A stretch of DNA of 64,000 bases from Sugiyamaella lignohabitans (Eukaryota; Ascomycota; Dipodascomycetes; Dipodascales; Trichomonascaceae): assembly GCF_001640025.1 (NCBI RefSeq), contig NC_031672.1, positions 3,596,001 to 3,660,000 on the forward strand, in the 5' to 3' direction. The translations under genes were made by a program, and so were the position numbers. Under the pieces are notes generated by a model that searched no databases, was not told where the DNA came from, and saw nothing but the letters and a program-made list of their open reading frames with translations. Every line of letters begins with the position of its first letter. Positions within the stretch are counted from its first letter, which is position 1. Shown here one piece after another: positions 26,839 through 60,963 of the stretch.

Positions 26839-28845
26839 TATTTGAAATCTGTGGAACTGAACTTATTCGGGTAGAACTCGCCAATAAACCGACAACCAGA
26901 AACAGATTTCCGAATTGTAAACAAACAGCTAAACAATCACAGTAGTTTTATCCAGGCAAGATATTCTGATAAAGAGCCTGTATACTGATAAATTGATCAA
27001 TACAATAAAGATTCACAAACTGATAACACCACCCAAATATATGAATAACTGGCGTGAAAGAAAGGTAAATCGATTGTCCACAGACTACCAAAATACCATG
27101 AACAACAAGTGGAAGTGAGAGTGAAACTTGTGTCAAACAAAACTCAAACAATGGATCCAATACGGAAACCAGAACGGAAAAATGCCAAATATGTTACCCA
27201 GTAAGAGTTACGTGCCCATTAAACTGGTGGTGGTTTCTGCATAATTTGAGCTGCGGATACCTTTGAGTATATGGAAATATTTTGAATCACTTCGGATCAA
27301 TCGAAGTCTAATTCCAGTGATAACCATGCGTTTGATTATCCGATCTGCGTGCTGTATGACGATCTTAGTAGAATTGAATGCGGGGGCCAATTTGTTGAGT
27401 AAGGAATAGCGCCATTTACTGTGGGGTAAACGAGAAATACACAAGTTATCAGATTTATAGTTTATGATTGGCGATTTGTTTGGCTGGCATCAGTTATCGA
27501 ACTTCGAATTTACACTTTCGACACAGGTGCTGTTAAGTTTTTACACTATTGTTGTGACTATTCACGAAACTGGTTGGGGACGTAGAAGTTTTGGGAGACT
27601 AGCTTCCGCATCACCCAATCTAGCGGAGATCCGATGCAAATATCAACGATACTCCTAAAAAAATAAAAAAAACGGATCTACTACTAGCAAACATTTATAT
27701 GGATCTGCTTGTCCTTTGTCACTTTGAATTTAGTATAACGTGACAAGTTTGGTTTCAAGTCTAGGCTGTGAGTGGACATCATACGGGGAACTAAATTATC
27801 GCACTGAGACATAGTTTACATATCAATATGATCTAATCGAATCTGGTTGTTTACAGGCCCAGCTCGCTTGGCTCTGTCGACTGCCCCACTTAACGGGTCG
27901 TTGGGGTGCATTATATCTAACCAGTCCTAAAATTTGAGAAAAGAGTCTCGGTAGACTACTCGGCTTCGGCATTACAGATCCCGTCGAAGTGCTCAGCATA
28001 CCAAGTGCCCGTACTGCACCATTGGGATAGTATTTGGTGATAGTAACTAGACATCAAAAAAAAATATAAGTGGTGAACTATTGAAAATAACCTGTTTGGG
28101 TTTCTTAGAATAATATGCCGGCGGCTGTTTTACTTGTTTCATTAGGTTAAGATTCAACTTTATTGCGCGACACCTGACACGAAGCACTTTCGTAAGGTCC
28201 TACCATAATTTCTCGTTGATAGACATTATCAGTTGAATAAGTTCTCCGGCCGACGGGTAAAACATTAAAAAAATAAAATAAAAATATAAAGGCGGAGATC
28301 TGTCTAGTCTACATTGGTACGTTCACAATCGGATTTGCGTTAGAGGGGCACTTCCCCTGGTTTTACTCAGTCGAGGTGCGGTGCGGGGTTTGCATGCACC
28401 CACAAAGTGCCTCCATATATTCTCACCAAATTTGCATTGATATTCTTGGAGGCTCGCCTCGTTGGTAAGTAGTGGGAGCGAGACTGCCTCCGGCGGCTGG
28501 GGCTCCACCCCAGTCCTCGTGGCTCCTGCTTCGCAGGAGTTCTGGACGGGTTACTCCTGCTCTATAAATCAAAAGGAAAGTACCATGTTGTCGGCATCTG
28601 CCATAAATAATTATTGAAGACAATTCAGATATTCTTTTATGCCCAGAAATTCTAGATTGGAAATATAGCTGGGTAGTCGTTGGTAGCATTTGAACAGGGA
28701 CAGCAAATTGCCAGCAAGATTGTTTTCATTAGCCTGTAGCAGAGTACATTGCTTGATGGGATACGCCTGCTGAAGACTTGCTGAAATTCAATTATGATTT
28801 AATATATGTCGCTACTTCTATTGTAGTATATACAAAACATGCTGT
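26839..28845. other. 2-kb spacer with one GC-rich repeat arm
   Basis: No convincing gene. Short frames on both strands lack conserved motifs. Contains repeat copy A (28485-28539), 307 bases beyond the CoA-transferase stop. This is the first copy of that family when reading from the left. Confidence 0.5.
28485..28539. repeat. GC-rich hairpin repeat, copy A (single arm)
   Basis: Forward arm TGCCTCCGGCGGCTGGGG, with the inner hairpin CTGGGGCTCCACCCCAG and the terminal hairpin CTCCTGCTTCGCAGGAG (7-bp stem, TTC loop). There is no opposite arm. Confidence 0.9.
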
Positions 28846-30435
28846 TTAGGTTTGAACGGTCTTCAAATTGTCACTGACCTTGAATGGAGCCTCGGTCTTT
28901 TGTGTCACTTCTTCTACAGTGATACCGGGGAAGACTTCGATAAGAGTAAGACCCTCAGTGGGATGAGCATCGAAAACAGCCAAGTCGGTAATGATACGTG
29001 AAACACAGCCCTTACCAGTAAGTGGGAAACTGCATTCCTTGACAATCTTCGAGCGACCCTTCTTATCAACATGCTCGGTGACGACAACGACCCTGGTCTT
29101 GGCAGGGTTAGCAACCAAATCCATGGCACCACCCATTCCTTTAACCATACCTGGAAGAGCCCAGTTAGCAAGGTCACCAAATTCTGACACTTGCATAGCT
29201 CCAAGGATGGTAAGGTCGACACGGCCAGATCTGATCATTGCAAACGACTCTTCTGAACCGAACAATGAAGCACCATCAATTAGAGTAACAGTTTCTTTAC
29301 CAGCGTTAATCAAATCAGGATCTTCTTCGCCCTTCAATGGATAGGGACCGAGACCAAGAATACCGTTTTCAGATTGCAAAGTAACATGGAAGCCTTCAGG
29401 CAAGTAACCAGGAGCTAGAGTAGGCATTCCAATTCCCAAATTGGCATAACCGTTACTCTTGAACTCTTGAGCAGCTCTACGAACAATCTTCTCTCTTTTG
29501 GCAGCAGCCTCAGCCTTCCCAGGAGGAAGGTCTGAAGGAGTCGATTCCTTGACTTGATCGGCAGGAACACTGTTCTTGTAAATTTCGATCATCTTGGGAG
29601 TTGTGGATTGAATGACCTTGGAAACATAGATAGCAGGAAGGTGGACGTCTTCAGCGGCGATTTCACCTGGTTGGACAATGTGTTCAGCTTCTACAATAGT
29701 TACCTTACCAGCACGGCCCATGACGGAATTAAAGTTACGAGCTGAACCACGGAAATAACAGTTACCGAATGTATCAGCCTTGTAAGCCTTGACAAAAGCG
29801 ACATCACCAACAATGGCTCTCTCAAGTAAATATTTACGACCGTCTTCAAAAACTCTCGTCTCACGAGGTTCACTGGTTTCAATAACAGATCCATCAGACC
29901 CGTATCTAACAGGCAGTTTGCCCTGTTCAACCCAGGTTCCCACACCAGTAGCAGTATAAAATGCAGGTACACCAGCACCTCCAGCACGACACCTTTCGGC
30001 GATAGTTCCTTGAGGAGTGAGTTCAAGAGAGATCTTACCACTGAGATATAACGACTCAAAGGTTTTATTTCCACCAATATAAGATGCGATCATTTTTGTG
30101 ATTTGTCCGCTTACTAGAAGTTTACTAAGACCCGATCCATCCACACCAGCATTGTTAGAAACAGCTGTGATATTTTGCACTTCCGACTTCTGTTCAAGGG
30201 CATTGATCAGTGTATCAGGCACTCCCGAAAGGCCAAATCCTCCGCAAAGAAGAGTAATATTAGATTTTACATCTTCGAGGGCTTCTTCAGGAGACGCGAC
30301 TACTTTGGTTGGGGTGGAAGATGAATTTCTGAATTGAAATTGGTTACGTAGCGCCAGGGAAAACCTGGGAGACGAAACGATTCTATTCACTGCCGTAGCA
30401 GATGCTACCACTGGTCGTCGAAGTAGAACACCCAT
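28846..30435 (-). CDS. Mitochondrial succinyl-CoA:3-oxoacid CoA-transferase, 529 aa
   Basis: Fused alpha and beta subunits of class I CoA-transferase: the A half at about 45-275 and the B half at about 310-515. The catalytic glutamate is Glu356 in LQSENGILGLGP. Residues 1-40 are rich in Arg, Ser and hydrophobics without acids, a clear mitochondrial presequence. The enzyme moves CoA from succinyl-CoA to a 3-oxoacid. In aromatic degradation it activates 3-oxoadipate (yeast Osc1 type), and in general metabolism acetoacetate. The clustered thiolase, dioxygenase and monooxygenase favour 3-oxoadipate. Saccharomyces cerevisiae lacks a close orthologue. Confidence 0.9.
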   Translation of the reverse strand: MGVLLRRPVVASATAVNRIVSSPRFSLALRNQFQFRNSSSTPTKVVASPEEALEDVKSNITLLCGGFGLSGVPDTLINALEQKSEVQNITAVSNNAGVDGSGLSKLLVSGQITKMIASYIGGNKTFESLYLSGKISLELTPQGTIAERCRAGGAGVPAFYTATGVGTWVEQGKLPVRYGSDGSVIETSEPRETRVFEDGRKYLLERAIVGDVAFVKAYKADTFGNCYFRGSARNFNSVMGRAGKVTIVEAEHIVQPGEIAAEDVHLPAIYVSKVIQSTTPKMIEIYKNSVPADQVKESTPSDLPPGKAEAAAKREKIVRRAAQEFKSNGYANLGIGMPTLAPGYLPEGFHVTLQSENGILGLGPYPLKGEEDPDLINAGKETVTLIDGASLFGSEESFAMIRSGRVDLTILGAMQVSEFGDLANWALPGMVKGMGGAMDLVANPAKTRVVVVTEHVDKKGRSKIVKECSFPLTGKGCVSRIITDLAVFDAHPTEGLTLIEVFPGITVEEVTQKTEAPFKVSDNLKTVQT

Positions 30436-31109
30436 TTGTTCTCACCGTGTATAATGTAGGTGTTTGGATCAATATTTCAAACCAGGGGTACCTTATATTT
30501 TCAACAGATGAGGTCTTAGGCTGGTTAAATATTAGCCCGCTTAGGAACAAATGTGGGGATCGGCTAAACAATTACGTGCATGTGGGGTTCCGCTGTTTTC
30601 CGACTTCGGAGCGGAGCTTTTTCGGCTGGCCGCATGAGCAGGACAGCTATCCGCCAATGAGTAATTTTTAATTTTTGGGTATCAGGTGGATATGAGAGAC
30701 TTGATTTTGCATTTTCTTTAAGCTTTGTCATCTTATGGTCTAAAATTTCTACCATCCAGATGGTGAAGAGGTTGTCTATGATGTGAATATAAAGACTGCA
30801 CGTGAGCCTCAGCTTCTGGATCACCGAGGTAAATTGCCCAGTCTTCCGCACATCTGATGGCGGAATAAAATCATGGAACCAAACCTTGAATCCAGTGGAG
30901 TCGTCGGAATTTTCCGTAGAATGCGCAAACTTCCGTTATTCTGTGAACCGGGTCTTTTGCATTGCACTATTTGATGAGCATAACTAGACAGTGCATAATT
31001 GGCAAGTTGATCGACAGGGTCCAAGATCATGGTGAATAATGAACAGCAATTATGAAGCGAATTATTATATGAGGTGGTCCAAAAGACTCACAGTATGGCA
31101 TTAGGATAA
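30436..31109. other. Divergent promoter, CoA-transferase / orphan ORF
   Basis: AT-rich spacer with no recognisable gene. Overlapping short frames on both strands around 30560-30990 lack motifs. No full QUTA-like palindrome was seen. Confidence 0.4.
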
Positions 31110-34783: not shown

Positions 34784-36337
34784 TATGGAACGGTCGATTT
34801 ATGAGAATAAATGTGGTCGCTGTTTGACTAGCGATTTATTAATTGTCAAAAAAAATTGACACTACAGATTAGGAAGCTATAATATATCAGGAAAAAGGTA
34901 CTTTTATATTTATATTAAGTTTTGGGCAAACTAGAGCATGTATCTCCATCCAATGGAAATAAGCAAATTAGTGTTAAGGAGAGAAAGAAATGATATAGTG
35001 AAGCAGGGTTTAGGGGGCAGGTTTCATGGTGGTGTGGTATGATCACTGATAAGAACCTGGTTGAAAACGGTAGCCATCTTGGTAGATCTTAGCAGGATAT
35101 CGCGTAATATCCTGCCTTGTAAAATACTGACAACACATCAAATTGGATCAATATTAGACAAATAGGGCTCACCAAAAACTCAAATCCGTTACCTTCACTG
35201 GTAAACAGATAATCTGCTTTACGAAAATCTCGATATTAAAAAATATAAAAAGTATCCACGTTTTTTCGTATTGTGGCTATAGAAACAGGTAGCATTGAAT
35301 CGTTATACATTTTAGTTAAGATTTGGAAATAGACTTTTCCTATCTACATAGCGTAAACTCTCGATCTCTTCAGTGTAGAACTAACGGGGGATGCCCGTTG
35401 GCTGTACGTCGCCGAAACTGGCAGTGCCGTGCTTGCCTGCAGCTGATAAGGAAATTAGCTCTGAAATATGGTTCAATCTAGGACCGTTCGATAGACACTT
35501 GTATCGGGCACAACCAGTCAACAAACGACGTATCCTGATCATAGATTGCAAATCAGTGAAAATAGATACAAACAGAATTCCACCATAAAAAAAATGGGGT
35601 TGAAAAATTGAATTAGCGACCGGTAACGGCTTATCAGCAGATCCCATTTTTAAGATTCTAGTCTTATCAGTGCAGGAGCCGGTACTGGCAGTGATGTGCA
35701 GACAATGCGTATACCACTTTATAGTTCCCGGATTTCAAACAAGCAAGAGTCCGAACTGAACAGAAAAAACCCGAATTAGGTTTTACAACATCGCTTACAC
35801 CACCGCCATCATGCGAGAATGTGGGCCATTAAGCAGCGATAGCGTCCACAGTGCATGACAAACGAGCGATACCGGCGTCACCCCTCACGAAACACCCCTC
35901 AATTCCCCTCATCTCGTCCCCCCACCCGCCATCCTAATACCAACTAAAAAAATACCTGCCTAACCGACACCCGACGCCCGACTCGAGCGTAGCGAGAGGA
36001 GCGGTGGGGTCTGGGGCGGAGCCCCAGCCGCCAGACAAAGCCGTGGGGGCACCAGAGACATGCCTCCGGCGGCTGGGGCTGCGCCCCAGACCCCGCTGCT
36101 CCTCTCGCTACGCTCGAGTCGGGCGACGGGTTGGCGTTGGTTTGGGGTGTTTTCAGGGGGTGGTTCAGGTGGTATTAGAGATTGCGGCGGGAGAGGCGTG
36201 CGCGGCTTGTCAACGTGGTTAGGGCTAGGCATGTGTTCGGACAACTATTGGAGAATCGAGGCATTGCAGGCACGACAACGTCGGTTGAATATTAGTAGAG
36301 TCGACAGTCGGTGAGCGGTGGGTCTTGTTTTTTGAGA
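34784..36337. other. 1.5-kb divergent promoter region with repeat copy B
   Basis: No recognisable gene. The left kilobase is AT-rich. The right end holds GC-rich repeat copy B (35971-36130), about 208 bases upstream of the Vps3844 ATG. Confidence 0.5.
35971..36130. repeat. GC-rich hairpin repeat, copy B (arms in inverted order)
   Basis: A reverse arm (35971-36034) is followed by a forward arm (36061-36130), so the TGCC ends face inward and the CTCGAGTCG ends face outward, the opposite of copies C, D, E, J and K. The stems are intact. The inner loops differ from other copies (CTGGGGC-TGC-GCCCCAG). Confidence 0.9.
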
Positions 36338-37720: not shown

Positions 37721-37778
37721 TCTATTTCTCATTTCTGTACCTAATACACATTTTTAACTCACTTCCTGTGGTGGGACA

Positions 37779-37917
37779 TGCCTCCGGCGGCTGGGGCTCT
37801 GCCCCAGACCCCGTGGCTCCTCTCGCTTCGCTCGAGTCGTTTGCGTCTACGGTCCCGGCCATCTCCTGCGAAGCAGGAGCAACCAGGTCTGGGACGGAGC
37901 CCCAGCCGCCGGAGGCA
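37779..37917. repeat. GC-rich hairpin repeat, copy C (full, both arms)
   Basis: A complete 139-base element: forward arm with the CTCGCTTCGCTCGAG module, a short centre, the CTCCTGCGAAGCAGGAG hairpin, and the reverse arm ending in GGCA. It lies between the convergent stops of Vps3844 (37720) and FRQ1 (37952), 59 and 35 bases away. Confidence 0.95.
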
Positions 37918-37951
37918 GCACCCTCAAAGAAAAAAGAAGCACCCAGTAAAA

Positions 37952-38524: not shown

Positions 38525-39863
38525 TTTAAGGCTGATGTTTATTTATAAGAAGATGAAGACAAAGTGGAATAGTGATCAGAACCGGAACTGAAGGTCAATA
38601 AAATAAATTCGAAGCTACCAAGTGGTGTCCAAATACGACAGTTACAATGGTAGAAAAATGACAATAGTGTGGAAGTGAGAATACGATTGACACTCAATAT
38701 GATTATGAAAATGGAAATGACAACCAGAACAAAAGAAAATTAAAGCCAAGTGAAATAGGTCAGTTAACTATGTCCAGCCTTTTCTTTGTGTTGTTGTAAT
38801 AAAAATAAGAGTGGATGCTAGAGATCAATCTGGGAAACGAACCCGGTGATAGACGGTTGTAACGGGCGAATTTAACAATAATAACTATCGAGACACCGGA
38901 AGTATTGCTAGAAATAAATTATTTCAAAACTACCGGAATTAATAAACCAAATCAAATCAATACCTGTCGATAGAAACAGTTAAAGTAAGATAAATAATCA
39001 AACAGATAACACCAGAGATAAAAGAGATAAAAAATGAAGAAGCTGGGAGATGCTGACTAGGAGAGATGGCCCGCTGTTTCAGGGTGGAGAAGTGATAACC
39101 GCGCGGGTCTGTCGATTGATCTGTACGACTGTCAATCTTGAGTTGGGACTGAGAATCCCGTGGTGCCGTGCCAGTCAACAACAGCAGCAGTAGCAGAAGA
39201 AGTCAGTTAAATTGAAGTATAACCTACAGCAGCAGGGGGTGCGGATGCAAGTGCACAATTAAAATGTTGTGGTCCCTAAATCGAATTAATTCAACGACTG
39301 ACGGGAGAGATGTGATAGGATGATAATCACGCTCGGATTCTCTGGAAATTCAAACGCCCTTGACCCTAATCTGATAACTGCCAGAACCAACTGAAACCAA
39401 TAAATTCGAGAAAAATCAAACAAAAGCAGAATAAAAGCGAATCAAAGAATCGAGATCCCAAGCACGAAATTAAATAAAAAACACACAACACAGCCGAACC
39501 GAAACTCACCTTCACAGGCTCTTCATATGCTGCCAAGCACCGTGGCACGAGGCAGTGCAGCTTCCCAATCCTCTCCCTCACTGCCTTCAACCGTGCCGAG
39601 CCGCATCCTGCACCTCCCCCTGAAGTTGCCGTTCCTGTCACGCTATTTTTTATTTTCCAGGGGTCGTGCCTCCGGCGGCTGGGGCTCCGCCCCAGACCCC
39701 GCTGCTCCTCTCGCTGCGCTCGAGTCGGGCGTGGGGAGTCACCAGCAAATTTTTATTCCACGGGACCGAGACGAAAACGACTCGAGCGCAGCGAGAGGAG
39801 CAGAGGGGTCTGGGGCGGAGCCCCAGCCGCCGGAGGCACACCCCCCAAGGAGAAGAAAAAAAA
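38525..39863. other. 1.3-kb spacer upstream of FRQ1 with repeat copy D
   Basis: No convincing gene, though small frames occur near 39366-39641 and 39527-39880. The latter pair is produced by the GC-rich repeat. AT-rich except for copy D at 39667-39838. It serves as the FRQ1 promoter and the Egt2-like 3' region. Confidence 0.5.
39667..39838. repeat. GC-rich hairpin repeat, copy D (full, both arms)
   Basis: Both arms of 172 bases, with the CTCGAG-type module in each arm and a long AT-containing centre. It ends 25 bases before the stop of the minus-strand Egt2-like gene (39864), within its expected 3' UTR. Confidence 0.95.
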
Positions 39864-41162: not shown

Positions 41163-42035
41163 TTCTCAATTTCTTGCCTCAAAAACAATTCAATTGACCA
41201 CAATCAACAACAAAAAGAACAAGAATAACCACCGGTCATACCTGGACTTATATAGTCCCCTCCCATGAGATAACCACCGTGACTCACAACGCGATAAGAT
41301 AACGTGCATGCAATCAGTCACGCCGATCCCATGCATCCCGGTTATCGGCGGTCGTCTCCTCCTCGCAATCCTACTCCTCACACCCTCCTCTTCTACCCTT
41401 GGAACCTGGGTCCGGGTCCAGGGGGGACGGGGCGTGCCTCCGGCGGCTGGGGCTCCGCCCCAGACCCTGGTTGCTCCTGCTACGCAGGAGATTGACTGGG
41501 ACCGTCGACGCAAACGACTCGAGCGAAGCGAGAGGAGCAGTGGGGTCTGGGGCGGAGCCCCAGCCGCCGGAGGCACACCCACACCCGTAACACCCCCGCC
41601 TGGACCCTGGCTGGATTCAGGGTCCAGGGGGTGTGGACCTAACCCTGACTGTTGGCAGGCTTCACGGTGCAGGGCAAGGGCACATGCCAGTAAGCGGTGT
41701 CGTTTGTTTATGTGGGACCTGCGATCCAAGGAGATTACGGATGAGAGACCGAGGGCGCAGTACAGGACGGGCCATCACTGAACGTTCGAATTGCACTGGA
41801 TTGCACTTGTTTCATGAACTGAGTTGAGCGGGTGTTGATACTGGCTGTTTTAGACGGAAATTGCGTCGACTGAAGATTGATTTGTGGTTTCGAGAAGAGG
41901 ACGAACTGAACTGGAAAGCTGGACCTGGAAGTTCGAAGTGGCCAGTCCGGTTGTCTAGCAAGAGCAAGAGCATATCTATTTTGATTGTCAGGTGCATGTC
42001 AGTGGGCGTACTGTGGCTTAGTATAGAACTGATTA
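41163..42035. other. Divergent promoter, Egt2-like / SEC15, with repeat copy E
   Basis: No gene called. GC-rich repeat copy E (41435-41575) lies in the middle. Short frames around it are products of the repeat. The region just left of SEC15 ends TTTGGCTAATTCCAG, which resembles an acceptor. I found no matching donor and keep the ATG at 42036. Confidence 0.5.
41435..41575. repeat. GC-rich hairpin repeat, copy E (full, opposite orientation)
   Basis: A 141-base element like copy C but inverted: the CTCCTGCTACGCAGGAG hairpin comes first and the CTCGAG module second. Its centre, read on the other strand, shares the GTTTGCGTC-ACGGTCCC core with copy C. It sits in a divergent promoter. Confidence 0.95.
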
Positions 42036-44747: not shown

Positions 44748-45272
44748 TTATCCCCAGAACCAGCCCTTTCTTCCAGTCTGTGGCTTGCTCTCGGGTTGAA
44801 GTGCAGTCTCCGAGACGCTCTCATGTTTCTTCTTGAACGCCACAACTGCTTCGTCTAACGAATTCTCCAGATCTGAAACTTGTGCTACAAAGGCTGTTAG
44901 CCACTACTTTTCTTTCCACAATTGCCTCCGGCGGCTGGGGCTCTGCCCCAGACCCCGCTGCTCGCTTTGCTCGTTGCTTCAATCCCCTGGCAGGATTGAA
45001 AATCATGCAACTAGTTATAACGTCTGTAAGAGAGTACCAGCCAGAGGATGCATAAAACGACTAAACGAAGACTTACTTGTGAGTGTGGTTCTCTTCTCTT
45101 CGAGCTCCAGCTTTCGCTTCACAGCTTGTAAGCCGAAATATGTCACAAGAACTGTCAAAAAAACCTTAGAAAGAGGAATACCAAACATATCAAATAGAGA
45201 CGCACGGTGGTTTCTTTGGACAGAATAGCTCCTGGCCCACTTTTGAGCTGGACTTCGCATCGCTCGGAACAT
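44748..45272 (-). CDS. Small predicted mitochondrial membrane protein, 110 aa, spliced
   Basis: Two exons, 45077-45272 and 44748-44884, joined in phase 1 over a 192-base intron (44885-45076; donor GTAAGT, branch GGCTAAC, acceptor GTAG). The start MFRAMRSPAQKWARSYSVQ looks like a mitochondrial presequence. One transmembrane span follows (about 32-51). Then comes a charged coiled-coil segment spanning the splice junction (KRKLELEEKR, then VSDLENSLDEAVVAF), and a WFWG end. I do not recognise the family. The layout resembles small inner-membrane assembly proteins. The intron carries GC-rich repeat copy F. Both splice sites and the reading frame agree, which supports a real gene. Confidence 0.7.
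44923..44974. repeat. GC-rich hairpin repeat, copy F (single arm, intronic)
   Basis: A forward arm with a shortened outer module (CTCGCTTTGCTCG), inside the intron of the small membrane-protein gene and about 38 bases before the acceptor on the transcribed strand. A TTCAATCC/GGATTGAA inverted repeat flanks it on the right. Confidence 0.85.
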
Positions 45273-48600: not shown

Positions 48601-51564
48601 ACAATCTGACATCTGATGAGAATAAGAAGTATGTAAAACATCATGGAGCATAGAATCCTCAAGTGCCTGGCCCTTTTGACAGCCAAACTCCGTAAGATGG
48701 ACCACAATATTGTGAACATCCAGACCCAGCTCAGTAGCTACGACCGATTTCACCTTGGCAACTGACGACATGTCAGGTATTGATATTGCTGTAAACGTTT
48801 TGTTGTCTATAGTGGCGAGAATGGTCTGTTTTCCGAGCGACGGAACAGCTTCTTTCTGGGGGCGATACTTAGGGTCCAAGAAAATGAACTTATCAACTGC
48901 TTTGAATGGACTTGTCTTCTTCTGGACGGGAATATTGTACAAAGGAGACGTTGGCGAGTCAATACGCAAGTTGTCCCGGCTCTTGCTTCTATCGCGCATC
49001 CGAAACTTCTTGAACAATCCCCGATTCTTCCTATGTTCAGGTGGATCAAGAATATTAACCTTAACATCTCTGTTGATACCACCGTCTTCCGATTCTAACA
49101 GACTGGTGGTGCTGGTCGTTTGAGCCAGCAGGTTAATAAGCGATGACTCAGACGAGTTCGACTTATTATGACGCCGCAAAAAACCCGGTCGAAATGATGG
49201 CGATATTGGAGCCTATATGACTGGTTAGTACGTTCGTGGCTCTGCCTCCGGCGGCTGGGGCTCCGCCCCAGACCCCACTGCTCCTCTCACTCCGCTCGAG
49301 TAGGGCGTCGGCGGTCCCAACTGCGGAATACTTACTCCTTGGAATGTAGTTTTGGACCCACTTTCGAAGGTGGACATCGGTCGCTGCTTTGGCTGGGACA
49401 TTCTTGGGCGTGGCTGTACTGTCTCGTACGAGGCTTTCTGGTCGATAGGGTTCGAGATGATTCTTTCTAATGGAGAGGTCGTTAGAGTGTCTTCAGCTGC
49501 AAGCACAGGTCGTGGCTCGTCCAGTGAGTTCGAGATTCGTGGAAATTCTGTCACTGATGATGGTCGTCCAGTTCGTGGCGACAGTTCCGTTGGGGGTATC
49601 AGGGTATTATTCGTGTAAACATTATTTTCGTTAAAGTTAGTAATATTGTTAGGGTTACTGTCGTTAGAAGTTGTCGAGTTGGTGGATGCTGACTTGTCCA
49701 ATAGTTTTCGCAGGTTATGAATAAACCGCGATGGGCTGGTGTCGTATTCTTCGTTTCTCGTCGAAAAAGGTCCGAGTTCTTTTAGTTTCTGATAATTTAC
49801 AAGGGAAAGGAACTGGGCTCCCTGGATATTACGCGTGCGAAACGTGCTTATCCAGTCAGGGCCAAATTTATTGGCCTCTAACCATTGACAAACTCTTTCG
49901 TTGGTCCAGTCACTGGGCTCGTTTGCTCTCCATGACACAGCGGCTGGACTAACTACTATTGACTGTGATCGAACTTTCGTAGCTGGAGGTGTCTGAACAG
50001 GTATCTCGTTAGAAACAGACCCTATCGTGCTGATACTACCAGTTTCCAGCCTGCTGGCATGTGATGGCAAATAGTTGGGTAGCGCACTCGTAGAACTACC
50101 AGACCCTATGCTACCAACATTGCTATGGCTGGTGACGTCGGTATATGTAGTTAATGGAGCAGCAGGTGTTGGAGAATATGTCGTAATAGGCGATGGAGCA
50201 CCTTGATATCGTGTATACTTCAGTGGAGTCGACATTAGAGGAGAAGAGTTTGCTGAAGACATGATTCTCGAGCCAGGATGCCCACTAAGTGTCGAGCCGG
50301 CACCAGTATTGCCCCCAGTGCCAAACCCGCTGCCACTTCCAACTGGAGGTGAACTCATAGGAAATCCAGGACTGGACTCAAAACCACCACTGGCAGAGAT
50401 ATAATTCGAACTCGGTGAAGCCGTAACATCTGGTGAAGTGTTTGTATTTACTGGCTGGTTACCAGCTGACACTGATCGGGGGGTATATGGCAGATTAGGC
50501 TGTCTTGCTGATGGGTATACAGCTAAGTTGTTTACCATAGAAGAATTAGGATATACGTTTACAGACCCGTTTTTCCAGCCATGGCTACTTTGACGTTGTG
50601 GATATGGCATTGGAGACGAAAAGTTGCCTGGGTCAGACTGATGATGACCTCCACTGCCAACCAATGGTGAGCTATTAGCATTTGAATGGGCTGTATGGTA
50701 CGAAACTGGGCTATCTCCACCAGACAAAAATGACGAGTCTGCATTTGAACTACCATTGGCGTGAGCTTTGGCATAGTAATGAATATTGTTGTAACTGGCA
50801 CTGCTATGTAGAATTGGAGAGTTTCCACTCACAGCAGTCGTATTAGAATACAGATACGGAGATGATGGCAAATGTGCTGTAGCCATTGTTGGCCAACCGT
50901 TGCTGTTGTTACTAGTTGATCCAGGACTGGTACCACCAGAACCGCCAAGAGCTGCACTTCCACTTGTGCTACGAAGTCTGGACCCAACAGGTGGGTGACG
51001 GCTTTCACCATAAACATCTTTATTGCTATTAGCAACACCCGTAGTATTCACATGGTTAACAGAGCCAGTAGAACTAGCAGGAGTCCCAGTGCTATGAAGA
51101 CCAGGACCAATACCAGTAGTACCCGAGCCATTGACACTAGGAACACTTTCTGAACCAGTTGTAGAGTCAATAGGACCATTGCTAACTACAGCTACTGGTT
51201 CTGAGCTTGTGGATTTCTTTCCAACTTCACTGTGTCCTGTATTTGGTCCACTAAATTCACCATTGGCATGACTTCCAGCAGATCCGGTGCCAGATCCGGT
51301 ACCAGCTGTAGTGGCAGCTCCAGTACTGCTACCACCGCTACTGCCGGCACTACCACTTCCACCACCGCTCTTACGATGCGAGCGATGAATTCGAGGACGG
51401 GCCATAGCAGGATATGGGTCGTCAGCAGCCCCTGAGCGTACTGAACTAGTAACAGCTCTGAGATCAAAGTCAAAAGTACCAGTATCTGGGATGCCGAGTG
51501 CGTGACTCAAGTCAGAGGTGGGCACCTCATCTTCCTCGTACTCAGCTCGACTCAATCTCGGCAT
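45606..51564 (-). CDS. BCK1: MAPKKK Bck1 (cell-wall integrity pathway), 4 exons, about 1896 aa
   Basis: Exons are 49336-51564, 46273-49212, 46099-46177 and 45606-46048. All introns have GTAAGT donors and CTAAC-type branches, and all junctions keep frame. Domains: Gly/Ser/Asn-rich N-terminus; SAM-like domain (WTNERVCQWLEANKFG near residue 560); Ras-association/ubiquitin-like region in exon 2; a long Ser/Pro-rich linker; and a C-terminal kinase with GKGTFGKVYL, HRDLKADNLL formed across intron 2, DFGIS, and GTIFWMAPE. The kinase is very close to yeast Bck1 (TLKDLDHLNIVQYLGFE). Bck1 acts between Pkc1 and Mkk1/2. It is longer than the S. cerevisiae protein, mainly in low-complexity linkers. Confidence 0.93.
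49243..49310. repeat. GC-rich hairpin repeat, copy G (single arm, in BCK1 intron 1)
   Basis: A forward arm with a slightly degenerate outer module (CTCACTCCGCTCGAG) that fills about half of the 123-base BCK1 intron 1 (49213-49335), between the donor and the perfect TACTAAC branch site. If the intron is missed, the repeat is translated as a false GSGAEPQPPEA tail. Confidence 0.92.
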
Positions 51565-52270
51565 GATTTCGAGGGTTGTTTCTCAGATAAAAAAGCTACT
51601 CCAGTTATCAGTGAAACACGCTCATTTAACAAATCAATATTCCACTCTGAGACAAAATGTTTCTCGGTATAATTTTCTTTTTTCTTGGGTTCTTTCCCAC
51701 AATTCCTGTTGTATTCTATAGGCTTCTATCGAATCTTATTCAGTATTCAGATCGGTCCCATTCAGAGCACCTTACTCATGTGCATCAGCATGTGAATGCA
51801 CTATAGAACTCAATATTAGACTATGAGTCGTGATCCGATATCAGGCCCGTTTGCGACCGGTTGATTTTTACGCAGCTCAATCAGTCAGACCGATTCGGAT
51901 ACACCGACACACGTTTAAATCCGATGAATTTCGTAAAGACAACCAATTCTTGCTCGGTTGACTGGCTTCTCACGAACCTGATCTCGCGATGGTCCGCTAC
52001 TTCACGAGCAGCATGCGCGCGGCTACATGTTCAGGAAGAGCACTTCTCACTTCCAGCATTCGGCATCACAATTTTGGCCCCAAGGACTCTATTCAGACCT
52101 CATTTTCTATTCTCATAACTAAAACCTGTCCTCTGATACCCCTAGCAACTCCTGCTTCACAGGAGCAACGGGGTCTGGGGCGGAGCCCCAGCCGCCGGAG
52201 GCAAAACTCCCCCCCCCTCCCAGTACCCAGTCCGTCAAGAGCATGTACAATATATTATTTACAGGAAGCG
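51565..52270. other. BCK1 promoter / MRPL49 3' region with repeat copy H
   Basis: No gene. Repeat copy H (52149-52203) lies 67 bases beyond the MRPL49 stop. A poly-C stretch at about 52208-52217 follows it. Confidence 0.5.
52149..52203. repeat. GC-rich hairpin repeat, copy H (single reverse arm)
   Basis: A CTCCTGCTTCACAGGAG hairpin (closing pair lost by a G-to-A change) followed by a reverse arm ending GGAGGCA. It is close to the MRPL49 3' end. Confidence 0.9.
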
Positions 52271-53008
52271 TTAACCTTTAGTTGAGCCGTAGTCCTGGTT
52301 GACCCGGAGCTCAGAGATGCGGATGACAGTGAGCGCATTTTTGGCGACCACGTGGCGGACATGCCTTCTGCGTCGTTTGGATTTGCTGAACACCGAGCGC
52401 TTGACCCGGGTGCTCTCGACAACAACACCTTTGATTGAGAAGACATTCGAATCGATGCGTGGGTTGCCGGTCAATGTGTAGTCGCGAGAGCCAATAACCG
52501 AGACCTGGTCGAAATTCAGCACGTCGCCCACTTTGGCCTCGCTCAGTGATACTGGGAGTAGGATATTATCGCCTTCAGTGACCAGAAATTTCCGGTCGTA
52601 CATGTGAATTGTGGCATATAAAGCTGAGGCCTCTTTCAACGGCGTGATATCTGCTGGCTTGGTGTATCTGAATCGTCTTTTCACAAGCGCTTCTGACGAC
52701 AGCACTAGAGGCGAGATGCCAGTCTCGATTCCGCCTGTCTGTTGTGTAAATTGTTCGAGCTCTTCAGTCGTTTCCTGCTGATTCTCATGCTGTTGTGATT
52801 CCGGCCAGCTAACATTCGAGCCGGCACTCGTCCTAGTACTAGTTCCAAGACCATTCTGAACACCAGCTGATCTGGTGAACAGCGACGCTGGACTCGACGA
52901 AAATGCGAATTTTTGGGCCTTTAACAAACTTCCAGAACTAACCCCCGCAGGCTGTCGCACCAGCAGTGCGTTGGCCGACCCCGCTAATCGCGTCAGTCTC
53001 GAGATCAT
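52271..53008 (-). CDS. MRPL49: Mitochondrial ribosomal protein bL21m, 245 aa
   Basis: The C-terminal 115 residues match bL21/MRPL49: YATIHMYDRKFLVTEGD, VGDVLNFDQVSVIGSRDY and a basic KSKRRRRHVRH segment that contacts rRNA. The N-terminal half is a mitochondrial presequence (MISRLTRLAGSANALLVRQ) plus a Gln/Glu/Ser-rich linker. It is a component of the large subunit of the mitochondrial ribosome. Single exon, ATG at 53008. Confidence 0.93.
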   Translation of the reverse strand: MISRLTRLAGSANALLVRQPAGVSSGSLLKAQKFAFSSSPASLFTRSAGVQNGLGTSTRTSAGSNVSWPESQQHENQQETTEELEQFTQQTGGIETGISPLVLSSEALVKRRFRYTKPADITPLKEASALYATIHMYDRKFLVTEGDNILLPVSLSEAKVGDVLNFDQVSVIGSRDYTLTGNPRIDSNVFSIKGVVVESTRVKRSVFSKSKRRRRHVRHVVAKNALTVIRISELRVNQDYGSTKG

Positions 53009-53469
53009 CTTTTATTTCCGGCAAAGTCTGCTCTGGATCTCACTCTCAAACCACTCGGTTCACGCACTTCCTGAATTTTTCAGTCCCTGAAATTTCACAC
53101 CTGCAGCAGGGTAAATTCATCACGTGACCAGTTGGAGGGGAGGGGGTCACGGGAGGGTGATGGGACTCCGCCACAGGCCTCCGCTGCTCTTCTCGCTTCA
53201 CTCGAGTCGGTTCCAGCGACGGTCCTAGCCATCTCCTGCGAAGCAGGAGCTACGGGGTCTGGGGCGGAGCCCCAGCCCGCCGGAGGCAAGTTCACTTCGG
53301 ACCGGCGGGCCATGGGCCGCATAAGTGGCCGTTTTTGGTTGTGAAGCGGGTGGCTACGGTTAGAAAAAGTAGCGGTCAGGGGAGAGTTGGTTTACGGATT
53401 GATTTTGGTTTGAAACTGGTTTTCTGTTGATTTACCGGATTTTTGGTGAGAAACAAGAAACAGTCGAGA
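53009..53469. other. Divergent promoter MRPL49 / FZO1 with repeat copy I
   Basis: A short divergent promoter, roughly 130 bases of which are occupied by repeat copy I. No gene. Confidence 0.5.
53159..53288. repeat. GC-rich hairpin repeat, copy I (left arm degenerate)
   Basis: The left arm is eroded (GGGACTCCGCCACAGG), but the CTCGAGTCG module, the ACGGTCC centre, the CTCCTGCGAAGCAGGAG hairpin and the right arm are clear. The organisation and centre match copies C and E, so this is an older copy of the same subfamily. Confidence 0.88.
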
Positions 53470-56370: not shown

Positions 56371-56433
56371 CATAATTTTTTTGGTCTATAATTTGATATG
56401 TAAATAGCATTATCCTACATCCCACCCGACGTC

Positions 56434-56594
56434 TGCCTCCGGCGGCTGGGGCTTCGCCCAGACCCCGCTGCTCCTCTCGCTTCACTCGAGTCGGGTGTGT
56501 TGGACCCAGCATTTTCTAGGGACCCCGTAGCTACGACTCGAGCGAAGCGAGAGGAGCAGCGGGGTCTGAGGCGCAGCCCCAGCTGCCGGAGGCA
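56434..56594. repeat. GC-rich hairpin repeat, copy J (full, both arms)
   Basis: Both arms, 161 bases, with CTCGAG modules. The left inner hairpin has lost one C, and the right one has a G-T wobble, but both still fold. It lies between the convergent FZO1 and flavin-reductase-like genes and ends 3 bases before the latter's stop codon. Confidence 0.93.
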
Positions 56595-56597
56595 TGT

Positions 56598-57233
56598 CTA
56601 ATCCTCGTACTCCCCTTCCTCATCCAGGTCCTCTTCACCGTCACTGGACGGCTCTTCGTCGTCGTCATCGTCGGAGATGAGCCCGCGCCACTTCACCATT
56701 CGGTTCTGAAGATCTATACGGTCGCCAGCGACAATGAACTTTCCCTGACCGAGGTGGTGGATGGTCCGCTGCTCTTGGCGGTCTTTATCTATCCATGCTC
56801 GCACCACTCTTAATACAAACAGGTCGTATTTGCTCACAAGACTGGTGTTTTCAACCACACATTCGAGATTCGCAAGACACTCGCCAATCAGGGGAGCTTT
56901 GACTTTGGATCCTTGGACTGCTGTCAGGTTATATTCTCGGAACTTATTGACCTCGTCGCCCGAACAATTACCAATATCAACGACAGTCTCGGCCATATCC
57001 ACTGTAGGAACTGCAATAACACACTCTTTGGTTTTTTTAAGAGTGTTGAAGCTGTAATCCCACGGACCCAACGAGCACGCTATCAGCGTCGGATGATGGT
57101 GCTGCAGCATCATATGAAACCCCATGGTCATAACATTAATCGACTCGTCTCGAGCCCGAGTCGTCACCAGCACAATCGGACCCGGTTCTATCAACTGACA
57201 CACTTTCTTGAGCGGAAAACTGTGTAAAACCAT
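56598..57233 (-). CDS. Flavin-reductase-like split-barrel protein, 211 aa
   Basis: Residues about 10-150 match the flavin-reductase-like FMN-binding domain (EPGPIVLVTT, MTMGFHMMLQ, ECVIAVPTVDMAETVV). The C-terminal 25 residues are almost wholly Asp/Glu. The start is the first ATG. It is only distantly like the flavin-reductase-like protein at 13156-14121. The gene is closely bracketed by repeat copies J and K. There is no targeting signal. Substrate unknown. Confidence 0.8.
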   Translation of the reverse strand: MVLHSFPLKKVCQLIEPGPIVLVTTRARDESINVMTMGFHMMLQHHHPTLIACSLGPWDYSFNTLKKTKECVIAVPTVDMAETVVDIGNCSGDEVNKFREYNLTAVQGSKVKAPLIGECLANLECVVENTSLVSKYDLFVLRVVRAWIDKDRQEQRTIHHLGQGKFIVAGDRIDLQNRMVKWRGLISDDDDDEEPSSDGEEDLDEEGEYED

Positions 57234-57352
57234 CCTCGATATCAACCTCTAAGATCTGAAGCAATCTACGATTCTATCTTGGAAATGCAATTATATTGCC
57301 GCTTCGGGTAACCCCCTGTCGATCTCCAACATCGGATCTCGGGGGTCGACCC

Positions 57353-57488
57353 TGCCTCCGGCGGCTGGGGCTCTGCCCCAGACCCCGTAGCTCCTGCTTC
57401 GCAGGAGAGACCGGACTCCCCACGCCCCGACTCGAGCGCAGCGAAAGGAGCAGCGGGGTCTGGGGCTCAGCCCCAGCCGCCGGAGGCA
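57353..57488. repeat. GC-rich hairpin repeat, copy K (full, both arms)
   Basis: 136 bases: forward arm, CTCCTGCTTCGCAGGAG hairpin, a GGGCGTGGGGAGTC-type centre, CTCGAG module (read on the other strand) and reverse arm. It ends 35 bases beyond the TGT stop codon (57524). Confidence 0.95.
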
Positions 57489-57523
57489 GAATTGGGTCCG
57501 TTAAATGCTGTTCTATGTACATT

Positions 57524-58813
57524 TTAGAGGTCTATGTTGACTGTTTTGAGGGCCGTGATGGCCCAGGAGGGGTATTTTTCGCGGTCCCCGTTGTACAGGT
57601 CGTGGAAGAACTGTTTGACGAAGTCGGGATACGAGTCTTGCAGGATGGCACGTCGGGCTCGGCGCATCAGTTCCAGTTGGTAGTACACGTTGTGGAGGGT
57701 GAGAAGATGTGCTCCGGCGGTTTCTTTGGCTGCCAGGTGGAAAATAAAAGATCTTGTGATGCCGAGTCCACCCTCGGATTTCGGTTTACAGATGGGACAA
57801 CCGCATCCTTCTTCGACGGGCGAGAAGTCGTCCATGTACTTTCGGCTTCTCAGGTTGAGATTGCCGAACCGCGTGATGGCGTTTCCAAATCTGGCGGTTC
57901 TGGTAGGATATACACAGTCAAACAGGTCGGCTCCTAACGCTACTGATACCACGAGGTCTTCGGCATATCCTACTCCCATACAGTATCGGGGTTTGTTGGC
58001 AGGCAGAAGATCAGTACAGAGAGACACAACTCTACAGTACGATTCTTTATCTTCTCCTCCGGATAATCCTCCAATAGCAATTCCAGGAGTGTCACGAGCA
58101 GCCATTTCTGCGCAACATTGACGACGTAGGTCGAGATCTAGTCCTCCTTGGATGATGGCGAATAGGTTCTGTGTGTCGGGGTTCTTGTGGGATTTTATAC
58201 ATCTATCGAGCCATCTGATGCTTCTATGCATGGCCTCCTCGACACGAGGTCCTGTAGTCAGAGTAGCTACTACGTCGTCAAGTTGCATCATGATATCTGA
58301 ACCAATACTGTTCTGTAGCGACATGGAATGTTCAGGGGTCAGCAACATGGGCGACCCGTCGTGGGGACTCAGAAAATTCACTCCTTCTTCTGTGATAGTA
58401 GCAAGTTTCAATAACGATACCATTTGGAACCCGCCACTATCGGTGAGGATGTTTCCATTCCATCCTTGGAGTTTATGAGCTCCTCCAACGGTATCCAGAG
58501 TTTCTTGACCTGGTTTCAGTCCCAAGTGATATGTGTTATTTAAACAGATTTTACAGCCCAGATCTTTCAGTTGTTCATAGGTCAACCCTTTTAAAGACGC
58601 TTGAGTGCCTACTGGCATAAACATCGGCGTTTCTACTGTTCCATGGGGTAGTTTCATGGTCGCAGCTCGTGCTTTGGATTTCGAACATTTTCCCACCAGT
58701 TCAAATTTCATAGCTGGTCCTTGGTAGCTGGTAGCTGTCGAGGACACGCTGGAAATGCTTCCTAGAGCTCCTTTCTCCACACTTTTCTGAAGCAGCCCGC
58801 TCATTATCCTCAT
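57524..58813 (-). CDS. tRNA-guanine (queuine) transglycosylase catalytic subunit, 429 aa
   Basis: A full-length TGT of the eukaryotic QTRT1 type. Asp125 in TDSGGFQMVSL and the nucleophile Asp299 in GADLFDCVYPTRTARFGNA (299 is the second Asp) mark the active site. Zinc is held by Cys337, Cys339 and Cys342 (GCGCPIC) and His374. The enzyme swaps guanine-34 for queuine in GUN-anticodon tRNAs, with a QTRT2 partner. A short Ser-rich leader precedes the core, and a second Met at residue 4 is possible. S. cerevisiae and the CTG-clade yeasts I know lack this gene. Confidence 0.93.
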   Translation of the reverse strand: MRIMSGLLQKSVEKGALGSISSVSSTATSYQGPAMKFELVGKCSKSKARAATMKLPHGTVETPMFMPVGTQASLKGLTYEQLKDLGCKICLNNTYHLGLKPGQETLDTVGGAHKLQGWNGNILTDSGGFQMVSLLKLATITEEGVNFLSPHDGSPMLLTPEHSMSLQNSIGSDIMMQLDDVVATLTTGPRVEEAMHRSIRWLDRCIKSHKNPDTQNLFAIIQGGLDLDLRRQCCAEMAARDTPGIAIGGLSGGEDKESYCRVVSLCTDLLPANKPRYCMGVGYAEDLVVSVALGADLFDCVYPTRTARFGNAITRFGNLNLRSRKYMDDFSPVEEGCGCPICKPKSEGGLGITRSFIFHLAAKETAGAHLLTLHNVYYQLELMRRARRAILQDSYPDFVKQFFHDLYNGDREKYPSWAITALKTVNIDL

Positions 58814-59195
58814 AAATATTTTATTTTTGTTCCGAGCTTATCTACCGTCGACGTCGAAAATCAAATTTTTGTTTTTCTGTTATGTAAGGTTAAATACTGC
58901 AGATCGGCAAAAGATAAGCCTCAGGGTCCAGTGCGAATTCGTGAACTAGGGTGTCTTTTTTTTGCCTCCGGCGGCTGGGGCTCCGCCCCAGACCCCGTGG
59001 CTCCTCTCGCTCCGCTTGAGTCGTTATCCACTGGTGCCTTTTTCTTTTTTCTCTGGTTTATCGGCTTGCGAATGGTGCTTCGAGGGGAATCATGAGTCGC
59101 ACGGCTCAAATTTTTTGGCATGTTCGAAATGCAAGTCGATCCAGGTATCTTCACAAGATCTCTCACTGGGTTAATTGAACTTGAAACCATTGTCA
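58814..59195. other. Divergent promoter TGT / ELP4 with repeat copy L
   Basis: No gene; AT-rich except for repeat copy L. Confidence 0.5.
58963..59023. repeat. GC-rich hairpin repeat, copy L (single arm)
   Basis: A forward arm with the module CTCGCTCCGCTTGAG after a T8 tract, upstream of ELP4. There is no opposite arm. Confidence 0.9.
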
Positions 59196-60764
59196 ATGTC
59201 GTTTAAGAAGAAAACTGTCGTAATATCTGGTGGGACTGGGACTGGAGCTGTTGGAAGAACTCCAGCTCAGTCCATGGTTCCAGGACGTGTTCCTGCTGTC
59301 CCAATATCAACATCTGGACCAGCACAAATTAGAGGTGGTCCAGTTGCCAGAGGTCCTGTTCCAGGATCTGGTGCTGGAATTGCTCCGGGATTGAGTACTT
59401 CTAGGGGGCTGGCGTCTGTACGGACGGTAGATGTTACTATTCAGAATCGTGGTTCTTCTTCATCTCAGATATCAACTAGCAACATCATGGAACATGATGG
59501 AGTGAGACCCTCTTTACAGACATCTGCTCCTACAATTTCCCTTGGATCCAGTAGTCTGGATAAGTTATTAAATCATGGTGGTCTGCCATTGGGATCTTTA
59601 TTGGCAGTTGAAGAATCTGGATCAACCGATTTCGCCAGTATCATTCTACGGAGCTTTGCCGCTCAGGGTATTGTTCATGCTCGATTGCTGGATCAAACTA
59701 AAAAAGCAATTGCTCCTACAAGAATTGTCGTCGTTGGGGGTGACGATTCATGGGGCATGGAACTTCCTGGCGTTTATAAAGACAAGAAAGAAGCTGCTCG
59801 TGAAAACCTCAGGAAAGAGCAGTCGAGAATCTCAGTAGGAAACCTTGCTAATAATCCTTCTACGACACGTATAACAACTGGATCCAATAATGAAGAAATC
59901 AACTCCAACTCATCTCCTAGTGTCACTTCCTCTACCGATTCAGCTTCAGCTAATGAGACAAGTACCGCTTCTGGTGACTCTACTACTGCTAATACTACCA
60001 CATCTGGCGAAAGTCGTAGCTCACATGATATGAAGATTGCCTGGAGATATGCGCAGAATTCAGCACCGAAGAGCAATGTTGCTAACGAAACCGTAACCTC
60101 GAAACCTAATTACACAACATTATTCGACTTCACATCACGACTAATACCTAGACCCAGTGTCAATGAGATCAGTTATATCCCAGTGAAAACCAGTTTTGCA
60201 TCGATAATATCACAACTGGAGACGATATCTCAGCAAGCCAGTAGTAAAGGCATGGTTCTCAGGGTGGTAGTTCCATCTCTACTACATCCAGCAATCTACC
60301 CACCACATTTTGCACACCCTAACGAGCTAATTCCATTCCTCCACTCGCTTCGAGGTTTATGTCGCAAGTATCCACAGACTCTCACGGTCATCATATCACT
60401 GCCATTACAACTGTTTCCCCGAGACACTGCTCTAATCCGGTGGTTCGAGCTATTATGTGACGGTGTCCTGCATTTAGAACCGTTTCCAGAAGAAATCATT
60501 AACGAACTTCGAGAAGCCAATTCTAAAGATATTGGCGGGTCCTCATCCTCCAAAACAACGTCGTCGAGCAATGCAAACCAATCACAGGGGCTAGTTCACA
60601 TTTACAAGCTTCCTGTCTTCTCAGAAAAAGGAGTAATGGCTGTCCGCAAAAGTGAGCATGCTTTCCGTGTAGGACGCCGCCAGTTCGAAGTCCAAGAATG
60701 GGGCATTCCTGTCGAAGATGCCCCAGGTCCCGACACCGAAGAATCCAAAAAGCTCGACTACTAA
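59196..60764 (+). CDS. ELP4: Elongator subunit Elp4, 522 aa
   Basis: A RecA-fold PAXNEB domain, with ISLGSSSLDKLLNHGGLPLGS near residue 115 and LLRVVVPSLLHP-type and FSEKGVMAVRKSEHAFRVGR segments typical of Elp4. An acidic Ser/Thr/Asn-rich insert (about 215-285) separates the halves. The N-terminus is Gly/Pro-rich. Elp4 forms the Elp456 ring of Elongator, which modifies wobble uridines of tRNAs. It lies beside TGT, another wobble-base enzyme, though divergent orientation rules out an operon. Start at the first ATG (59196). A Lys-Leu-Asp-Tyr end closes the protein. Confidence 0.93.
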   Translation: MSFKKKTVVISGGTGTGAVGRTPAQSMVPGRVPAVPISTSGPAQIRGGPVARGPVPGSGAGIAPGLSTSRGLASVRTVDVTIQNRGSSSSQISTSNIMEHDGVRPSLQTSAPTISLGSSSLDKLLNHGGLPLGSLLAVEESGSTDFASIILRSFAAQGIVHARLLDQTKKAIAPTRIVVVGGDDSWGMELPGVYKDKKEAARENLRKEQSRISVGNLANNPSTTRITTGSNNEEINSNSSPSVTSSTDSASANETSTASGDSTTANTTTSGESRSSHDMKIAWRYAQNSAPKSNVANETVTSKPNYTTLFDFTSRLIPRPSVNEISYIPVKTSFASIISQLETISQQASSKGMVLRVVVPSLLHPAIYPPHFAHPNELIPFLHSLRGLCRKYPQTLTVIISLPLQLFPRDTALIRWFELLCDGVLHLEPFPEEIINELREANSKDIGGSSSSKTTSSSNANQSQGLVHIYKLPVFSEKGVMAVRKSEHAFRVGRRQFEVQEWGIPVEDAPGPDTEESKKLDY

Positions 60765-60780
60765 CCATCCAAAAACTGGA

Positions 60781-60852
60781 GACCCCACGCCCGACTCGAG
60801 CGCAGCGAGAGGAGCAGCGGGGTCTGGGGCGGAGCCCCAGCCGCCGGAGGCC
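60781..60852. repeat. GC-rich hairpin repeat, copy M (single reverse arm)
   Basis: A reverse arm preceded by a GACCCCACGCCC centre like that of copies D and K. It begins 16 bases after the ELP4 stop codon. Confidence 0.93.
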
Positions 60853-60909
60853 ATCCCCAACCCAAACGAGCACAAATAGACATATTTATACTTTTTTTGT
60901 TCCCCTGCC

Positions 60910-60963
60910 AGCCTCCGGCGGCCGGGGCTCCTCCTCAGATCCCGTGGTACCTGCTTCGCAGGT
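60910..60963. repeat. GC-rich hairpin repeat, copy N (single, degenerate arm)
   Basis: A forward arm with several substitutions (GGCCGGGGCTCCTCCTCAG). Its terminal hairpin reads ACCTGCTTCGCAGGT, where a T-A pair of the consensus stem has become A-T, so pairing is retained. Confidence 0.82.

Follow-up and report, generated by a model that had tools for sequence, protein, structure and literature searches.

The nuclear genome of the yeast Sugiyamaella lignohabitans carries a dense family of double-hairpin repeats, whose arm and inverted-pair layout are shared with scattered bacteria. The family had been described in an earlier note on a 64,000-nucleotide stretch of DNA (positions 3,596,001 to 3,660,000 of NC_031672.1, here contig C1, one of the four contigs of 2.3 to 5.9 Mb that make up the 15.93-Mb assembly); the whole of this stretch is called the window below. 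That observation was correct, and the true scale of the family is much larger than the window could show. On this evidence, bacteria and a eukaryote may both have been colonised by the same kind of tiny mobile DNA. The reading that we favor, with about even confidence, is that a mobile, REPIN-like hairpin element, non-autonomous and akin to bacterial ones, multiplied in the yeast nuclear genome.

Size, structure and distribution of the yeast family

The arm core TGCCTCCGGCGGCTGGGG matched the window at 19 sites (up to 3 mismatches), compared with 0.02 expected by shuffling. The inner hairpin matched at 36 sites, compared with 0.09 expected, but many of these were counted on both strands because the inner hairpin is nearly palindromic. 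A profile search (E up to 1e-3) returned 21 arms, the number given in the earlier note, with the first match at 28,485, in agreement with its statement that the first 28 kb hold none. The five full copies in the window (C, D, E, J and K) are 139, 172, 141, 161 and 136 bp long, and they start with TGCC and finish with GGCA, as expected from the TG...CA ends ascribed to them. In the whole genome, the 18-base core was found 7,084 times (3,518 forward and 3,566 reverse, up to 2 mismatches; reversed control, 0) and full inverted pairs 1,019 times (pattern tag-N100..125-tag'; control, 0), far more than a handful, which bears out the claim of a dense nuclear family. The arms alone make up about 2.7% of the genome (7,084 x 61 bases/15.9 Mb). 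The pair pattern limits lengths to 126 to 151 bp, and within these bounds the lengths of 100 of the 1,019 pairs peaked at 136 to 141 bp. A 284-kb sample, composed of the window and 22 ten-kb pieces of the same genome, contained 132 arms that formed 43 inward pairs and left 46 arms outside such pairs. With no length bound imposed, 27 of the 43 pairs were 132 to 148 bp long.

Each arm consists of the fixed tag TGCCTCCGGCGGC, followed by a hairpin and then GACC. In the 284-kb sample, 23 of the 43 inward pairs align as one element of about 139 bp, in which the tag TGCCTCCGGCGG is followed by an inner hairpin (CTGGGGC-loop-GCCCCAG), ACCCC, a long outer hairpin (CTCCTCTCGC-loop-GCTCGAG), a centre and a second arm with the outer hairpin CTCCTGC-loop-GCAGGAG. 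In one of the 23, at 53,148, the left arm is decayed. The element is asymmetric, since each arm of these pairs carries a different outer module; two outer modules therefore exist, as had been claimed, but they are not simple alternatives. The long module was present on both arms of 14 pairs, and 6 pairs remained unclassified. Also detected were a third outer module, GCTCGC-TTC-GCGAGC, and extra arms beside pairs, one nested pair among them.

When the decayed copy was left out, identity between copies was 0.92 to 0.94 in the arms and 0.49 in the centre (0.27 after shuffling), indicating that length and stems, but not the centre, are conserved. All four letters occur at the middle position of the long outer loop, and seven forms of the inner loop were seen, while the short outer loop almost always reads TTC. 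The loop tips vary and the stems persist, indicating that pairing matters. Of the yeast arms with the tag and GAC[C/T], 93/99 pair at 5/5, compared with 3/16 in cross-paired controls; for bacterial or IMG/VR arms, some of whose loci overlap, the numbers were 114/137, with several stem types, and 21/68. A clearly different compensated stem was found in only 2 of the 93 yeast arms, and the inner stems CGGGC/GCCCG or TGGGC/GCCCA are single examples in the yeast. The whole pair folds into one long stem, with z scores in single-strand folding of -13 for yeast element E and -11 for one bacterial element. Arms of the same element were more alike than arms of different elements (0.854 versus 0.821, P = 0.0018, 36 pairs), and the inner-loop bases of the two arms showed no excess agreement (15/29 the same versus 13.5 expected).

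No direct repeat of 3 to 6 bases abuts the borders of the 36 intact inward pairs, and a 2-base repeat was present in 2 of the 36, compared with 1.9 expected. The earlier statement that target-site duplications are lacking, and that the repeats fit an ordinary miniature inverted-repeat transposable element (MITE) poorly, thus stood. Outside each arm lie approximately 12 G-rich bases, with a tendency to read GGGGT ahead of TGCC; the two sides of an element show this in inverted sense. This flank reflects either a degenerate element end or a preference for certain sites. Beyond what this composition predicts, the two flanks of one element were weakly complementary (at 3 bases, 6 seen versus 2.4 expected, P = 0.03; no significance at other lengths). 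No homologue was found for an element-encoded peptide.

The positions of yeast genes were taken from intron-less open reading frame (ORF) calls. Elements avoid ORFs: the midpoints of only 8 of 74 merged elements in the 284-kb sample fell in ATG-started ORFs of at least 150 amino acids (aa), compared with a coding fraction of 0.53 (P = 2e-14). The family therefore lies mostly between nuclear genes, as the earlier note had it. Its further statement that exons contain no copy is open to doubt for one arm, that of locus G, which codes part of the last residues of a 779-aa SAM-domain ORF (Table 1). Of 18 elements in tandem gaps, 16 lay closer to the stop codon of the upstream gene (P = 0.0013; ORF threshold, 150 aa). 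Convergent gaps were enriched at ORF thresholds of 120 aa (12/48, P = 0.002) and 150 aa (10/46, P = 0.007), but this enrichment was gone at 200 aa (10/46, P = 0.23). The gap tests dropped the 13 to 25 elements that had no gene on both sides.

Arm density ranged from 0 to 12 per 10 kb over 22 stretches and followed both the GC content at third codon positions (GC3) of the local ORFs (rho = 0.93) and the arm-masked GC content (rho = 0.94). Six of the 22 stretches, including all four contig starts, had no arms despite ordinary ORFs. The full pairs are clumped along contig C1 (coefficient of variation of the gaps, 1.36 versus 0.99; P = 0.002; 100 of 1,019 pairs). In the element-poor or element-free stretches (window 1 to 28000; L009, L014, L019, L021, L024, L025 and L028), GC3 was 0.37 to 0.40, compared with 0.42 to 0.53 in most rich ones.

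The same arm in bacteria

The exact 18-mer was found in at least 120 stretches of prokaryotic genomes and in two IMG/VR contigs. These 122 loci, to which the pair spacings and flanks given below refer, contained 212 arms. Among the matches listed, 125 hits had at least 60 bases remaining (121 on genome contigs and 4 on IMG/VR contigs), and 97 of these continued with hairpin closure and ACCCC, compared with 0.05 expected on base shuffling; 104 passed a looser continuation test. The pair layout was shared as well: 47 of 55 close bacterial arm pairs were inward, 38 of the 47 were spaced 94 to 143, and the commonest spacing was 126 to 131. One locus, L082 of Solidesulfovibrio aerotolerans, agrees with the yeast consensus at all but two loop bases of a 34-base stretch and is the only bacterial locus, among the matches listed, with a hairpin of exactly yeast size. 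The bacterial outer flank leans purine.

Fourteen bacterial genomes contained 4 to 420 arms each (up to 2 mismatches), compared with 0 to 7 in controls. According to their record titles, they belong to Sphingomonadales, Acetobacteraceae, desulfovibrios, Spirochaetaceae, Myxococcota, Ruminococcus and others. The named strains Polymorphobacter multimanifer DSM 102189, Halodesulfovibrio spirochaetisodalis JC271 and Ruminococcus sp. YE71 carry arms, indicating that the family is not an artefact of metagenome-assembled genomes (MAGs) alone. The searches for the whole yeast or bacterial element in plasmids and for the yeast element in phages gave no match, with short partial matches only.

The earlier note had compared the repeats with double-hairpin elements and GC clusters of organelles. 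This comparison is not the best match found: in bacterial chromosomes, the arm recurs nearly letter for letter, and the inverted pairs are laid out in the same way. The GC clusters of yeast mitochondria (PMC4478555, compared by description from part of that source) are likewise a mobile palindromic DNA family of yeast, but of the organelle and not the nucleus. The palindromic repeats of Volvox, which occur in three compartments, resemble the present family in that hairpin repeats are also found in nuclear DNA; they differ in being AT-rich or having other motifs, and the nuclear copies are rare and were judged inert (PMC2670323, in the part used here, where CCGGAGG, CTCCGG and GGGGC are absent). 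In the main texts of the organelle-palindrome papers, CCGGAGG and CTCCGG were absent, and GGGGC occurred once, in a different kind of repeat. The terms palindrom, hairpin and inverted repeat each occurred 0 times in the main text of a Trichomonascus genome paper (PMC13130702), and a search of the open-licence PMC literature by sequence words and topic found nothing on this hairpin family among the papers listed.

The occurrence of the arm in bacteria is patchy. Among Alphaproteobacteria, 7 of 289 genomes matched (up to 1 mismatch); six were single-copy, and only the query genome had more than one copy. In the phylum of genome G004, 4 of 118 genomes matched, with 169, 14, 1 and 1 copies. The 13-base tag was found in 36 of 60 relatives of genome G002, at 1 to 138 copies (reversed control, 0 to 5), with high numbers in few. 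Nine of the 29 loci from this last search had a hairpin after the tag, and the rest resemble chance coding matches. The hairpins of the relatives differ by pairwise compensation (TGGGGCC/GGCCCCA, CAGGGCC/GGCCCTG, CAGGGGC/GCCCCTG and AAGGGTC/GACCCTT), with the tag unchanged; that of L205 is imperfect.

Related sites were also compared. A C-G pair in the stem was swapped between G303 and G304 at an orthologous site. Two IMG/VR contigs had a full pair and a single arm, respectively, at one site, and a second IMG/VR site was probably filled in one case and empty in the other, with borders that are not fixable to the base. At the same gene junction, a full pair was present in G001 and none in G009, whose genes nearly abut, and G002 and G317 both had the element between the same convergent genes. 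These sites show that bacterial insertions differ from one species to another, yet a position can be kept while its hairpin evolves.

A half-arm, CTGGGGCTNCGCCCCAGACCCC, was found without the tag in one Microviridae record, one Inoviridae record and eight IMG/VR contigs (L216 to L225; reversed control, 0). The eight contigs represent five different contexts, and four of them are 4.0 to 4.7 kb long. A second hairpin-GACCCC module comes after the half-arm in L221, L222 and L225. Single-stranded DNA phages use HUH enzymes and hairpins.

Possible origin and spread of the family

REPINs are bacterial doublets of REP sequences that are mobilised by RAYT and are tied to RAYT and to their own lineage, as described in the part of PMC3116915 used here. 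By that description, the yeast family resembles REPINs in its high copy number, its intergenic location and its inverted pairs of palindromic arms round a spacer, the length of which outweighs its sequence; in both, single arms are likely remains and changes are compensatory. The yeast family differs in lacking a detected RAYT and a GTAG/CGTC tag (the tag TGCCTCCGGCGGC is neither), in residing in a eukaryotic nucleus, in having an arm of about 60 bases with two hairpins and in doublets that are not better kept than singlets. Many short intergenic copies, an inverted pair with a spacer, and a tag with a compensated hairpin were all found, as in REPINs. The family thus behaves in the manner of a REPIN yet falls outside the definition, and since RAYT, the GTAG/CGTC tag and better-kept doublets fail, it was not filed as such. 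REP-like palindromic repeats of bacteria that lack terminal GTAG/CGTC motifs, as this family does, are mentioned in PMC3733652; the main text, in the part used here, contains neither CCGGAGG, CTCCGG or GGGGCC nor Desulfo or Sphingo names.

The structure, the pairing, the spacing, the absence of a duplication and the sporadic blooms fit a REPIN-like hairpin element. In such an element, the inverted pair would be the copied unit and single arms would be its remains. It may move as a single-stranded hairpin or cruciform that is recognised by tag and structure, in trans, by a putative enzyme. The family may have crossed between bacteria and yeast, or both may have drawn on a third source, and it would then have been amplified in the yeast. 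From the sharing of the arm with bacteria we infer horizontal transfer; alternatively, the sharing may reflect convergence on a common cellular target. A bolder and distinctly less probable proposal is that one hairpin family multiplies in bacteria and in a eukaryotic nucleus by exploiting a universal step of replication or repair (cruciform processing or template switching), with no need for a transposase of its own lineage. If this were true, the family could bloom anywhere after horizontal transfer, here to about 7,000 arms. With a nuclear family that has bacterial-type arms, thousands of copies and no RAYT in sight, the crossing of domains and the need for a transposase become testable, and yeast genetics is usable for testing both.

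Several observations weigh against a REPIN-like element of bacterial kinship. The Y1/RAYT transposase (PF01797) was not found in the yeast, in a search whose positive controls gave hits in 5 of the 14 genomes known to be suitable. It was likewise not found in 12 of the 14 bacterial genomes, several of which are MAGs and maybe incomplete; it was present in the other two, once as a fragment. RAYT was therefore set aside as the mobiliser. An autonomous bacterial element flanked by arms was also considered and rejected: among the 122 loci listed, the three inward pairs with spacings between 400 and 5,000 bp (438, 710 and 1,250 bp) enclose no transposase, and two of them enclose mutually unrelated ORFs, one SnoaL-like and one without a Pfam match. 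Canonical pairs were not significantly better kept than singles (0.939 versus 0.908, P = 0.15), nor were all pairs (difference, -0.009; P = 0.63). No empty yeast site was found, and 0 of 20 listed copies of a dispersed repeat appeared split by an element (their sequences were not read). The bacterial loci were found via the yeast 18-mer, so the tag match is selected and only the sequence outside it is independent. Even on the looser test, 21 of the 125 listed hits lacked the continuation, and they include chance coding matches (Streptomyces, Caballeronia). Both the yeast-type arm and the long outer module were absent from IMG/VR; the large bacterial collection was not searched for outer modules. 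Finally, some bacterial copies keep their place across species, which a functional element fits too.

The main rival, which we consider possible but clearly the weaker account, is spread and uniformity without an enzyme: cruciforms break, and gene conversion or template-switch repair copies arms from other copies and mends the stems. The close correlation of arm density with GC3 and with arm-masked GC is as biased conversion would give, although it may instead reflect an insertion preference, as the 12 bases outside the arms are G-rich. Copying by repair is also consistent with variable sites located in the hairpin loops and the centre, with the covariation of the two arms of one element, and with the lack of both a target-site duplication and a detected Y1 enzyme in the yeast. 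On its own, however, it leaves unexplained the fixed units of about 139 bp at about 1,000 places and the high copy numbers reached sporadically by individual bacterial lineages. It could be combined with the REPIN-like reading.

It is improbable that the repeats are functional 3'-end elements, that is, RNA hairpins with a role in transcription termination or mRNA protection that are kept by selection. The position of tandem-gap elements near the upstream stop codon and the enrichment in convergent gaps at the two lower thresholds argue for such a function, as do bacterial copies with a kept position and a compensatory stem change. The purine-leaning outer flank in bacteria points the same way, since its far side leans pyrimidine, as after a terminator. 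However, the yeast pattern would also result from promoter avoidance without any function, and the six stretches with ordinary ORFs and no arms are hard to reconcile with a function, as are the 24 of 60 relatives of G002 without the tag. The bias toward gene ends in bacteria was not significant (21 versus 15, P = 0.41; convergent, P = 0.17).

MITEs are short, non-autonomous elements with terminal inverted repeats. That the yeast element is an ordinary MITE, bearing the terminal inverted repeats of a DDE transposon, is very unlikely: it is likewise short and non-autonomous with inverted ends, has TG...CA termini and about 139 bp and reaches a high copy number, but it shows no target-site duplication, its arms occur outside pairs as commonly as pairs occur (46 versus 43), and the hairpin within its repeat varies with compensation. 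Least probable of all is the copying of mitochondrial GC clusters into the nucleus, since, despite a similar look and the nuclear copies of organelle palindromes known in Volvox, those copies make up about 0.06% of nuclear DNA and are taken as inert (PMC2670323, in the part used here), compared with about 2.7% for the yeast arms, and the closest sequence match found was bacterial (the yeast search covered the four nuclear contigs).

Loci in the window and other observations

The ORFs of the window encode yeast-type proteins, including Sec15, a dynamin-like GTPase and Vps3844. The 14 loci of the family are given in Table 1. A search of positions 28,000 to 61,500 against Rfam gave four matches at E up to 1, each below its own threshold. 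One of these placed locus B (35960 to 36145) in MIR1858, with 68.5 bits compared with a threshold of 137, and was read as a palindrome artefact.

Table 1. Hairpin loci of the window (window coordinates)
Locus	Position	Strand	Description	Basis
A	28485..28541	+	Single arm, outer module CTCCTGCTTCGCAGGAG	Core match and profile
B	35979..36121	.	Palindromic, two back-to-back arms (35979-36035 minus; 36061-36121 plus)	Profile
C	37779..37917	+	Canonical asymmetric element, 139 bp, long-module arm first	Profile
D	39667..39838	.	Inward pair, 172 bp, long outer module on both arms	Profile
E	41435..41575	-	Canonical asymmetric element, 141 bp; long stem fold, z -13	Pair analysis and folding
F	44923..44973	+	Single arm	Profile
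G	49243..49303	+	Single arm, within 3' end of 779-aa ORF (49225-51564, minus)	Profile
H	52146..52203	-	Single arm adjoining end of L21-type ribosomal protein ORF (52271-53008, minus)	Profile
I	53148..53288	+	Left arm decayed, right arm well kept	Profile and pair analysis
J	56434..56594	.	Inward pair, 161 bp, convergent ORFs either side	Profile and pair analysis
K	57353..57488	-	Canonical asymmetric element, 136 bp	Profile and pair analysis
L	58963..59024	+	Single arm	Profile
M	60792..60851	-	Single arm	Profile
N	60911..60964	+	Single arm, diverged	Profile

Other repeats were also observed. All four contig starts (L009, L021, L025 and L028, about 1 to 1100) share approximately 1 kb at 84 to 94% identity. 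Window positions 1065 to 1400 hold a dispersed repeat with a TAA-repeat end, for which 20 matches are listed genome-wide at 92 to 100% identity, several of them truncated; these may perhaps be the 3' ends of LINEs (long interspersed nuclear elements). At window positions 4815 to 5158, there is a 170-bp tandem duplication with 92% identity.

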